Shown: one piece after another, positions 49,803 through 52,643 of the stretch | Layout: each line of letters begins with the position of its first letter | Position numbering within the stretch: position 1 is the first letter of the stretch | Assembly: GCF_000622245.1 (NCBI RefSeq) | Contig: NZ_KK211416.1 | Location: 354,296-418,295, forward strand | Direction: 5' to 3' | Length of the DNA: 64,000 nt | Source of the DNA: Fusobacterium perfoetens ATCC 29250 | Lineage (GTDB): Bacteria; Fusobacteriota; Fusobacteriia; Fusobacteriales; Fusobacteriaceae | Program-made: the position numbers and the translations under genes | The notes under the pieces: model-generated | Seen by the model: only the letters and a program-made list of their open reading frames with translations | What the model was told of the DNA's origin: nothing | The model's database searches: none

Positions 49803-51116
49803 TTATCCTATGCTTCCATATATCATACCAAGAATTAATACTAAAGCTGTGCCTGGTACAAATAAATATTTTCCAATAGCTAAAACATATTTTCCTTTTT
49901 TACTAGTAGCTCCTTTATCTATTTCATCTATAATTTTTTGATTATCCATAAAGAAATAATAGAAGAATAAAACAATTAAAGCTCCTAAAGGAATTAATAT
50001 TACAGACATAAAATCAGCAAATTTTCCAAATAAATTCATATTCAAATCAAGTGGAATACCAATTAATACTAAAATAGTTCCAACAATAACACTTGCTTTT
50101 TTTCTTGAAACATTAAATTTATACATAAATGCTTCTACAGGTACTTCTAATTGATTTATTGCTGATGATACAGCAGCAAATATTACACTTAAAAAGAATA
50201 TTCCAGCTAAAATTTTTCCTCCAGCTATTTGAGAGAAAATTGCTGGTACTGTGATAAATAATAACCCTGGCCCAGCTCCTGGATTATGTCCTAAAGCAAA
50301 GGCAGCAGGAATAATTACAAATCCAGCCAATAAAGCTGCTATAGTATCTAATATACAAGTGTGAAATACTCCATTTGTAATATCCATATTGTCATCTACA
50401 TAACTTCCATAGACAAGTAAAGCTGAACCACTAAGTCCAACAGTAAAGAAAGATTGTCCTAAAGCCATAACCCAAGTCATTGGATTTGCTAATGCTTCCC
50501 ATTTTGGAGTAAGTAAATATTTTATTCCTTCTGTAGCTCCTGGTAAAGTTAAAGATTTTATCATAAGCCCTATAAAAATAATAAACATTAAAGGCATTAT
50601 AATCTTATTTAATTTTTCTATTCCTTTAACAACTCCTAAAGAAATAACTCCAATACTTATTATACCAGCTAATATATGCCAAATAATTGAATCAGATGTT
50701 CCTACAAAATTACCAAAATATTCTGCATAATTAACATTGTTCATATCTATAGTTACATAAGAATAAAAATATTTTATTATCCATCCAAAAACAATTACAT
50801 AGAATGTAAAAATTCCTGAAACAGATATTACTGAAATAAGAGGTAAATATTTAGCAAAAGGAAATTTTTTCTCTTGCATAAGTTCAGAAACTCCCATTAC
50901 CCCTTTTTTTATCATTCTTCCAAAAGAAATTTCTGATATAAGTCCAATATAAGCAAAGAAAGCCATAAATAAGAAATATGGAATAAGGAAAGCTCCTCCA
51001 CCAAAAGTACCTAATTTCCAAGAGAACATCCAAATGTTTCCAAGCCCTACAGCTGCTCCTACACATGATAGAATGAACCCAAGTCGGTTACTAAATTTTT
51101 CTCTTTTCTCTTTCAT
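49803..51116 (-). CDS. NSS-family sodium-coupled transporter, predicted tryptophan importer
   Basis: A 437-residue inner-membrane protein with 11-12 hydrophobic segments. The N-terminal sodium/substrate motif is C-V-G-A-A-V-G-L-G-N-I-W-M-F, as in LeuT and TnaT. Family length and sequence suit the bacterial NSS transporters of hydrophobic amino acids. The substrate is inferred from the 5' leader: a leader peptide with three consecutive Trp codons (51283-51354) and a Trp-type attenuator precede the gene, so expression should rise when charged tRNA-Trp is scarce. Tryptophan uptake is therefore the best guess. Start ATG behind GGAGGAC. Confidence 0.85.
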   Translation of the reverse strand: MKEKREKFSNRLGFILSCVGAAVGLGNIWMFSWKLGTFGGGAFLIPYFLFMAFFAYIGLISEISFGRMIKKGVMGVSELMQEKKFPFAKYLPLISVISVSGIFTFYVIVFGWIIKYFYSYVTIDMNNVNYAEYFGNFVGTSDSIIWHILAGIISIGVISLGVVKGIEKLNKIIMPLMFIIFIGLMIKSLTLPGATEGIKYLLTPKWEALANPMTWVMALGQSFFTVGLSGSALLVYGSYVDDNMDITNGVFHTCILDTIAALLAGFVIIPAAFALGHNPGAGPGLLFITVPAIFSQIAGGKILAGIFFLSVIFAAVSSAINQLEVPVEAFMYKFNVSRKKASVIVGTILVLIGIPLDLNMNLFGKFADFMSVILIPLGALIVLFFYYFFMDNQKIIDEIDKGATSKKGKYVLAIGKYLFVPGTALVLILGMIYGSIG

Positions 51117-51150
51117 TTTTCAGTCCTCCATTAAAATTAAAATTATATAT

Positions 51151-51184
51151 AAAAAAATGACTATCAAATGTATCTGATAGTCAT
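51151..51184 (-). terminator. Attenuator terminator (segments 3:4) of the Trp leader
   Basis: ATGACTATCA (51157-51166) pairs perfectly with TGATAGTCAT (51175-51184). On the minus strand the hairpin is followed by U7. It lies 35 bases before the transporter start, so it ends transcription before the gene. Confidence 0.85.
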
Positions 51185-51209
51185 TATTAATCATTTTAAA
51201 TATTACATA

Positions 51210-51256
51210 CAGATACAAATTATTGAAATTTCCAAAACAAAATTAGTTTGTATCTG
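51210..51256 (-). promoter_or_regulatory. Alternative-pairing segments 1 and 2 of the attenuator
   Basis: On the minus strand CAGATACAAA (51256-51247, segment 1) can pair with TTTGTATCTG (51219-51210, segment 2). Segment 2 can instead pair through eight bases with CAGATACA inside the terminator hairpin (about 51176-51169), destroying it. A further AGATACATTT copy (51310-51301) lies directly before the Trp codons. These mutually exclusive pairings are what a ribosome-controlled attenuator needs. Confidence 0.65.
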
Positions 51257-51282
51257 TTTAATTAAACAATTACAAACTTATC

Positions 51283-51354
51283 TTAGAAACTCCACCACCA
51301 AAATGTATCTACAGAGGAAATATTTTTTCTAGTAATTAAATTGTAAATTTTCAT
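51283..51354 (-). CDS. Trp-rich leader peptide (attenuator)
   Basis: A 23-codon reading frame with an ATG at 51354 behind a perfect GGAGGG site. It begins M-K-I-Y-N-L-I-T-R-K and ends T-F-W-W-W-S-F before TAA. Trp19-Trp20-Trp21 (51292-51300) are consecutive UGG codons, in a genome where Trp is rare. Position between a strong promoter and an intrinsic terminator, ahead of an amino-acid transporter, identifies it as a regulatory leader peptide like TrpL. The peptide itself probably has no function; ribosome stalling on the Trp codons does. Confidence 0.85.
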   Translation of the reverse strand: MKIYNLITRKNISSVDTFWWWSF

Positions 51355-51392
51355 AAATATCCCTCCTTTTGTTTGTAATTTTTATTTCTTGT

Positions 51393-51421
51393 ATTTTATC
51401 ACTATGATATTTCATTGTCAA
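51393..51421 (-). promoter_or_regulatory. Promoter of the Trp leader
   Basis: Minus strand: TTGACA (51416-51421), 17-base spacer, TAAAAT (51393-51398), about 40 bases before the leader peptide. It begins 10 bases after the antiporter stop codon. No terminator separates the two, so some read-through from the antiporter is possible. Confidence 0.75.
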
Positions 51422-51431
51422 GTTTTTTTAT

Positions 51432-52643
51432 TTAATTTAATAATTTTTTTTGTCCTACTCTAATTCCAATAACTCCAATAGGGACAGAAACTATTATAGA
51501 TAAAACTCCTACAGCTAATAATATTTCTCCATGAGGTACTCCCATCATCAATGGAATTCCAGCCATAGCAGCCTGTACTGTGGCTTTCGGAATATAAGCA
51601 AGTCCACAAAAAAGTTTTTCATTATTATTTAAATTTGACCCAAATAAAGCTACACGAACTCCTATCATTCTACCAATAAGTCCTATTATAATTATTATAA
51701 GCCCTACTATACTAGAAGCAAATACAACCTTTATATTTACAGCTGCTCCTATTAAAACAAATAATAAAACTTCAGCAAATACCCAAATTTTATTAAATTT
51801 TAATGAAAGTCTTTGAGCAAGTTCTGGATATTTTTCTAAAATCATAAATCCCATAGCCATTATTCCTAAAAGACTAGCCATTGGAAATAAATTTAAAACT
51901 TCTATTTGATGAAATACTATAGCAATCATTAAAAATAAAATTGCCTTTCTTGTATCTCTAATATGATATGCTTTAAAAAATTTAACAAGTAAAATTCCAA
52001 CTAAAACTCCTAAAACTAATCCACTTATAATACTCATAGGAATTTTTAAAAGTTCTTTATAAATATTTACACCTTTTCCTAAAGCCATTGACAAAAAAGA
52101 TGAAAATAAAGTTATAGCAAATATATCATCTATTGAAGCTCCAGCTAAAATTATTGTTGGAATTTCTCTTTCTTTTCCTAGATTTTTTTCTTTTAAAGTT
52201 AACATTTCTGGTACAACTACTGCTGGTGATACAGCTGCTATTATAAACCCTAAACAACCTGAAATAGCAAAAGAATATCCAAGTAAAATATGAGTGATTA
52301 ACATAATAGTAAATCCTTCAAAAAGACAAGGTAAAGCTGCCATTTTTATGGCTGTTTTACCTATTTTTTTAAGAACTTCCCTATCAATTCCTAGCCCTGC
52401 TCTAATTAAAATTACAATTAAAGCACAAAGTCTTAAATCAGGAGATATCTGTAAAATTTTATCAGATATAAAAAATGATTCTAAAAATTTTAAATTTAAT
52501 GTATTTACAAAATAATCTTTAGAATATTCTCCTAATAAAATTCCTGTGAAAAGCATTCCTAAAAGCCCTGGAAGTCTTAACTTTTCAAAAACTTTAGCCA
52601 ATGATATGGCTATTAAAATAAAAACTGCAAAACTAAATAACAT
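51432..52643 (-). CDS. Monovalent cation:proton antiporter (CPA family)
   Basis: A 403-residue inner-membrane protein with about 12 hydrophobic segments. G-L-L-G-M-L-F-T-G-I-L-L-G opens the first repeat, and the ion-binding region is I-L-A-G-A-S-I-D-D-I-F-A-I-T-L, with the paired aspartates of CPA antiporters. The R-A-G-L-G-I-D segment is also typical. There is no C-terminal TrkA domain, which separates it from the KefB/KefC group. It probably exchanges Na+ or K+ for H+. It lies behind its own promoter and a structured leader with a terminator (52668-52803), suggesting RNA-level control. Confidence 0.82.
   Translation of the reverse strand: MLFSFAVFILIAISLAKVFEKLRLPGLLGMLFTGILLGEYSKDYFVNTLNLKFLESFFISDKILQISPDLRLCALIVILIRAGLGIDREVLKKIGKTAIKMAALPCLFEGFTIMLITHILLGYSFAISGCLGFIIAAVSPAVVVPEMLTLKEKNLGKEREIPTIILAGASIDDIFAITLFSSFLSMALGKGVNIYKELLKIPMSIISGLVLGVLVGILLVKFFKAYHIRDTRKAILFLMIAIVFHQIEVLNLFPMASLLGIMAMGFMILEKYPELAQRLSLKFNKIWVFAEVLLFVLIGAAVNIKVVFASSIVGLIIIIIGLIGRMIGVRVALFGSNLNNNEKLFCGLAYIPKATVQAAMAGIPLMMGVPHGEILLAVGVLSIIVSVPIGVIGIRVGQKKLLN

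Follow-up and report, generated by a model that had tools for sequence, protein, structure and literature searches.

The gene for a sodium:amino-acid symporter of the NSS family in Fusobacterium perfoetens ATCC 29250 is very probably preceded by a ribosome-mediated transcription attenuator, which would couple the supply of charged Trp-tRNA to tryptophan import through a scaffold that seems to be reused throughout the phylum. The gene lies in a stretch of 64,000 nucleotides analysed here as a whole (the window), and the predicted element belongs to a class in Fusobacteriota whose members share a hairpin after the leader stop codon, a downstream pairing segment (segment 4) and a terminator, and differ in the codon runs of their leaders. 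Taken alone, the window case is a Trp attenuator on an importer, a correct but modest result; the class behind it is more interesting, and is a variant of a known attenuation mechanism.

The leader region is bounded by the start of the NSS gene at 51116 and the end, at 51432, of an upstream antiporter gene on the minus strand. In the direction of transcription, with the regulated gene last, the features of the locus are the following:

51393–51421, minus strand: sigma-70-type promoter, TTGACA-17 nt-TAAAAT with TG ahead of the -10 element (11 of 12 matches)
51362–51367, minus strand: Shine-Dalgarno (SD) sequence AGGAGG of the leader ORF (sequence, leader finder)
51283–51354, minus strand: leader peptide ORF of 23 codons, MKIYNLITRKNISSVDTFWWWSF, then stop (SD-led, kept in orthologs, shuffle test)
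51292–51300, minus strand: TGG TGG TGG, three consecutive Trp codons, the proposed sensor (coordinates and conservation)
51245–51278, minus strand: post-stop hairpin, segments 2:3 (AGUUUGUA...UACAAACU), the shared scaffold (covariation, models R1 and R2)
51208–51219, minus strand: segment 4 (UUUGUAUCUGUA), partner of segment 3 (termination) or of segment 5 (antiterminator) (pairing tests)
51169–51176, minus strand: core of segment 5 (CAGAUACA), 5' arm and loop of the terminator and antiterminator partner of segment 4 (truncated folds)
51156–51185, minus strand: intrinsic terminator (segments 5:6), a stem of 13 pairs with a U tract behind it that reaches about 51149 (terminator search)
49803–51116, minus strand: regulated gene, NSS/SNF-family sodium:amino-acid symporter of 437 aa, probable tryptophan importer (PF00209, NF037979)

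The original prediction, whose range of 49803–51421 also takes in the whole NSS gene, had placed a Trp leader, a promoter, a terminator and overlapping complementary segments ahead of the gene, and all of them are present. An SD-led short ORF with WWW occurred in 0 of 5,000 dinucleotide shuffles and one with WW in 1 of 5,000, and the leader is the sole WWW peptide among the 26 SD-led short ORFs of the whole window. One terminator was observed at the locus compared to 0.1 expected, and the fold of the leader RNA beats 200 of 200 shuffles (z = -4.85). On its predicted translation, the locus has an SD-led ORF with a regulatory codon run ahead of a terminator, the arrangement of a ribosome-mediated attenuator. 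The promoter had been called consensus; it is indeed near-consensus, but one this good was reached by 79 of 2,000 shuffles and is therefore weak as evidence by itself. The alternative pairings had been ascribed to repeated AGATACA, found at 51310–51304 (within the ORF), 51255–51249 and 51175–51169, and its complement GTATCTG at 51216–51210. The last two copies are kept in orthologs; the ORF-internal copy is absent from them, and for that reason we rejected it as a regulatory segment and regard it as incidental.

Among Rfam families, only a tRNA and the fluoride riboswitch exceed their curated scores in the window, with no Trp_leader, and a search of the window at E up to 5 gave no meaningful leader match. 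The fluoride riboswitch (RF01734, 52686–52762, minus strand, 37.9 bits) is located just upstream of the antiporter gene (51432–52643), which encodes a cation:proton antiporter (PF00999); this arrangement suggests a fluoride/proton antiporter.

Evidence for the shared scaffold comes from the post-stop hairpin, the upper stem of which changes by compensation (UUGUUU/AAACAG, CCUG/CAGG, UUAUGA/UCAUAG). The 2:3 pairing was assessed on alignments of the hairpin alone, since aligning entire leaders with MAFFT placed segment 4 and the terminator wrongly. In 14 sequences 92.3% of the cells are paired, compared with at most 48% in slid versions, and two-sided changes number 15 against 5.1 in shuffled data; in 18 sequences of several classes the corresponding numbers are 22 and 8.2, and these covariation counts take in related sequences. 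The hairpin arms and the following NAUUUUG are also conserved in their letters, beyond pairing, with a U 11 nt past the hairpin in 29 of 36 sequences. It is possible that this conservation reflects an RNA-polymerase pause hairpin.

The downstream pairings are alternatives to one another. In the window, 3:4 has a dG of -13.8 (p = 0.004) and 4:5 a dG of -10.9 (p = 0.006). Among 38 representatives of the class the terminator is present in all 38, 3:4 is above shuffles in 31, and 4:5 is above shuffles in 22 and without significance in 16; the segment-5 shuffles ignore the constraint from the terminator itself. In a swapped-partner control, segment 3 distinctly prefers its own downstream region over those of other classes in 15 of 38 representatives, a weak result due to the GUAUCU core of segment 4 being common to classes. 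Mutually exclusive terminator and antiterminator structures (3:4, 4:5 and 5:6) are thus found in the window and in most of the 38. The original prediction was right that alternative pairings exist, but with five segments plus a terminator the wiring is no simple two-way switch. For window RNA that ends just after segment 5, placing a ribosome on any one of the Trp codons gives a minimum free energy structure of 2:3 together with 4:5. For the complete RNA and a ribosome at the stop codon, the structure is 3:4 plus the terminator. If the RNA in the stop-codon state is truncated after segment 5, the equilibrium still prefers 4:5, so that in the model 3:4 would have to form first during transcription, and the order of formation would decide the outcome in this state.

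From this anatomy, its conservation and covariation, the alternative pairings and the match between leader codons and genes, we infer both the stalling of the ribosome and the direction of control. When Trp-tRNA is scarce, the ribosome would stall on the Trp codons and the post-stop hairpin 2:3 would stay intact, keeping segment 4 available to pair with newly transcribed segment 5; the terminator would be blocked and the importer made. When Trp-tRNA is ample, the ribosome would reach the stop codon and cover segment 2, in which case segment 3 would capture segment 4 and 5:6 would form the terminator.

A leader unconserved in relatives had been named as the finding that would speak against a tryptophan attenuator, and a look at other fusobacterial NSS genes as a check. 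The leader, the Trp run and the pairings are kept in 12 other fusobacterial genomes, where WW or WWW precedes an orthologous importer 69–96% identical to that of the window, and two genomes carry WCWC before a paralog. The ortholog leaders (genera g1 and g4) are at equal distance from the gene and end in WWWSF, YWWRS, YWWRSF, HWWSS or FWWWP. There are exceptions: in one genome (G061) the leader is located on another contig (L143), and in another (G015) a WW leader of different design is found (L013). The orthologs of genus g13 have no leader and are located behind a gene that we read as proS. At one locus of genus g4 (L046, in a genome 67% complete) the promoter and terminator are kept and the leader ORF and hairpin are lost, which looks like a deletion of the switch. 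The two genomes with WCWC, G004 and G006, represent sister species in the window's genus and lack the ortholog; in them the same leader, ending in NISSENTFSWCWC, precedes another NSS protein, 33% identical to that of the window, while the leader DNA is still about 77–80% identical in an alignment with cheap gaps. Either a different gene took the place of the old one downstream of a retained attenuator, or the attenuator itself passed from one paralog to another.

Other NSS genes also have leaders. Three loci of genus g13 (L034, L084 and L085) have a distant NSS paralog with another type of Trp leader, in which WW or WWW occurs early in an ORF of 34–40 codons (..YWWWNCIEK.., ..CWWWSYIEK.., ..YWWSYIEN..), followed by a terminator without the shared hairpin; this is possibly an independent Trp attenuator. 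Two clostridial NSS relatives (L037 and L039) have the same attenuator as the window, with leaders rich in Tyr/Trp and in Phe/Tyr, and lateral transfer together with the gene is possible.

The extent of the class was surveyed in 98 Fusobacteriota genomes with a model of the Trp-codon end plus hairpin (R1) and with a model of the hairpin without the sense codons (R2), the latter trained on 18 class sequences, which it then recovered. Beyond NSS genes, R1 detected the leaders of trpS (MKINYYAISYWWC), DAHP synthase (..SWYWY), hisZ (..HHHRH), metY and homoserine dehydrogenase (..MLMMMLW) and metN (..MMMHMYT). R2 gave 37 sense matches with E ≤ 0.001: at 31 of them a W, H, M, C or P run within an SD-led ORF extends to the hairpin, 5 have Met or aromatic leaders recognised by eye and missed by the strict rule, and 1 is a plain terminator. 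Altogether 82 leaders were collected via R2, and in almost every assigned case the codon run suits the gene that follows; the loci are related, so that the counts are not independent, and R2 had been trained without any Cys, Pro or Asn leaders. The assigned genes are as follows:

Trp leaders: NSS 15, DAHP synthase 2, trpS 1, ABC permease 1
His leaders: hisZ 8, polar-amino-acid (ABC) binding protein 18
Met leaders: metN 8, metY 7, metG 2, hom 2, metE, aspartokinase
Cys leaders: sulfite-reductase-like, cystine-type permease, symporter, amidohydrolase
Pro leaders: putP 4
Asn leaders: asnA

A GldA-like dehydrogenase gene follows three aromatic leaders (L163, L164 and L175), which read MSLRKVRAMFWFMYYFKT.., and has no obvious link to aromatic amino acids; a further four leaders lie at contig ends or have no assigned gene. 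The leader MKINKVALFWWSWIIT stands before an ABC permease of LsrC/RbsC type (L152), possibly an unrecognised tryptophan ABC importer. MCCCMKL before a dicarboxylate/amino-acid symporter (L178) and MCCYMKL before an M20 amidohydrolase (L226) suggest the use of cystine or cysteine conjugates.

The window element is a single copy in its own genome, where two more R2 matches proved to be a plain terminator (L274) and part of a coding sequence (L275). We considered and rejected a clostridial origin for the class, as R2 matches in 117 Clostridiaceae genomes are plain terminators (28 loci examined), with the exception of one known NSS leader.

The gene product is an NSS protein by PF00209 (173.2 bits, cut-off 27) and NF037979 (98.2 bits, cut-off 50), and its nearest solved structure by sequence is the 4us3 series (E = 6e-75), which we take to be MhsT. 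MhsT binds aromatic and aliphatic amino acids. Leader codons may serve as a pointer to the substrate, which the original prediction took as identified by the attenuator, and here we infer tryptophan, since the same element stands before trpS and DAHP synthase elsewhere and no trpA was found in the window's own genome (99.97% complete); these observations support the original reading as a tryptophan attenuator and make a tryptophan importer the natural one. No trpA over cut-off was found in any genome with a window-type leader; the two genomes with the element also before DAHP synthase (G004 and G006) do have trpA. For the window's species, which lacks trpA, control of import would be the main way to meet the tryptophan need. 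The Tyr/Trp- or Phe/Tyr-rich leaders of the clostridial relatives indicate that the substrate of the family may drift among aromatic amino acids. At four loci of genus g4 (L053–L056), an NSS gene about 40% identical to that of the window is located directly behind a tryptophanase gene and is a probable catabolic tryptophan importer. No Trp leader was found before these tryptophanase-linked genes of genus g4, which suggests that import for supply and import for catabolism are kept apart.

The downstream RNA invites comparison with the trpB motif (RF04312), a strong riboswitch candidate which Narunsky et al. (2024) described from Firmicutes and Fusobacteria, mostly ahead of amino-acid ABC transporter genes (PMC11109978), and which members of the present class match below threshold. 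It is nevertheless very unlikely that the element is a metabolite-binding riboswitch of the kind proposed for that motif and the ORF incidental, because at almost every assigned locus the following gene can be predicted from the leader's codon run, one scaffold serving at least six amino acids is difficult to explain by a single aptamer, the window has no RF04312 match, and the authors of the motif themselves leave attenuation open (PMC11109978). That the hairpin is a plain A+T-rich terminator accompanied by chance ORFs is barely conceivable. The R2 matches in Clostridiaceae and a few in Fusobacteriota are such terminators, but codon-run leaders were found at none of the 28 matches in Clostridiaceae and at none of 107 on the opposite strand of all R2 matches, compared with the 31 of 37 sense matches at E ≤ 0.001.

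A mechanism of TnaC type, in which free tryptophan acts through the nascent peptide, the ribosome is arrested at the stop codon and high tryptophan induces expression for catabolism, has some appeal, as NSS importers, a tryptophanase gene and Trp leaders co-occur in these genomes and genus g4 has a different NSS gene directly behind the tryptophanase gene. In leaders of TnaC type the peptide is conserved and has a single critical Trp, and termination depends on Rho, whereas the present leaders have tandem Trp codons that vary in number and context (WWW, WW, WCWC, WYWY), a variable peptide sequence and an intrinsic terminator. Moreover, the tryptophanase-linked NSS genes have no such leader, and trpS and DAHP synthase under the same element suit starvation control; we consider the TnaC-type mechanism highly improbable. 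A reading compatible with attenuation, and differing from ours on the substrate, is that the importer is a general aromatic carrier of which tryptophan is the scarcest substrate and the one sensed. The ortholog leaders with FYWWRS, the clostridial leaders NTYYWSYYS and NFYFSHFR and the known binding range of the 4us3 relative favour such a carrier. Against it, the leaders of the window and of genus g4 have WWW but no Tyr, and trpA is missing in all genomes with a window-type leader, leaving it a possible but not the likelier interpretation. We retain the tryptophan importer under attenuation control as the preferred reading.

Leader-peptide attenuators are usually regarded as separate single-operon inventions, mostly of Proteobacteria and Actinobacteria. 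In Fusobacteriota one RNA scaffold appears to be reused for at least six amino acids across the phylum, and its leader codons suggest substrates for uncharacterised transporters. Naville and Gautheret noted that, until their own case in Bacillus, Proteobacteria and Actinobacteria were the only groups with known leader peptides (PMC2965389); a later case is Listeria ilv (PMC5864092). Our literature search found no paper describing attenuation in Fusobacterium or Fusobacteria. His-codon leaders are known before his genes outside Proteobacteria, in Firmicutes (PMC9413887; PMC2965389), but no scaffold common to several amino acids was described for them, and Fusobacteria were not treated.

Two Rfam families resemble parts of the class. 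In RF04312, P1 corresponds to the 3:4 pairing and P2 to the terminator, whereas the family is described without a leader ORF or the post-stop 2:3 hairpin. Full-length matches of 38–52 bits, below the curated cut-off of 59 bits that no tested locus including the window reached, were obtained for 18 tested His loci and both clostridial NSS leaders; the tested Trp, Met, Cys, Pro and Asn members were not recognised. RF02863 (Enterococcus sRNA_2410) matches the NSS leader of Clostridium hydrogeniformans over all 196 positions with 66.9 bits (cut-off 61). Its consensus opens with the codons of FSYFR-stop followed by the same GUUUGUA hairpin, like the end of a Phe/Tyr leader; it differs in being filed as a small RNA rather than a leader, a comparison made on the consensus sequence. 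These matches lead us to propose that the RF04312 motif, judged from sub-threshold loci, and sRNA_2410 may be parts of leader-peptide attenuators. For an orphan riboswitch candidate with more than 900 described members, the proposal becomes a prediction that a codon run lies directly upstream. We lean towards the broader notion that Fusobacteriota and part of Firmicutes have one inherited attenuator scaffold that takes the role of T-boxes in sensing amino acids generally, with a sequence-conserved hairpin (perhaps a pause hairpin) directly after the leader stop, swappable codon runs and exchanged targets, and with RF04312 and sRNA_2410 as its downstream halves.

The T-box (RF00230) also responds to the charging of tRNA and regulates genes of the same kinds, but needs no leader peptide and is rare in Fusobacteriota: a covariance-model search found none in the window's own genome, and 20 of the 98 Fusobacteriota genomes have a match at E ≤ 0.001, 2 of them over the cut-off. 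In trpL attenuators the codons lie in segment 1 of a set of three overlapping hairpins, whereas the window element has its sensor hairpin after the stop codon and two extra pairings between sensor and terminator. The window element and trpL of E. coli and Corynebacterium have in common a short ORF with tandem Trp codons, alternative pairings and an intrinsic terminator (for trp attenuators of Actinobacteria see PMC1262725), but trpL controls biosynthesis or trpS, and the element described here would control an importer.
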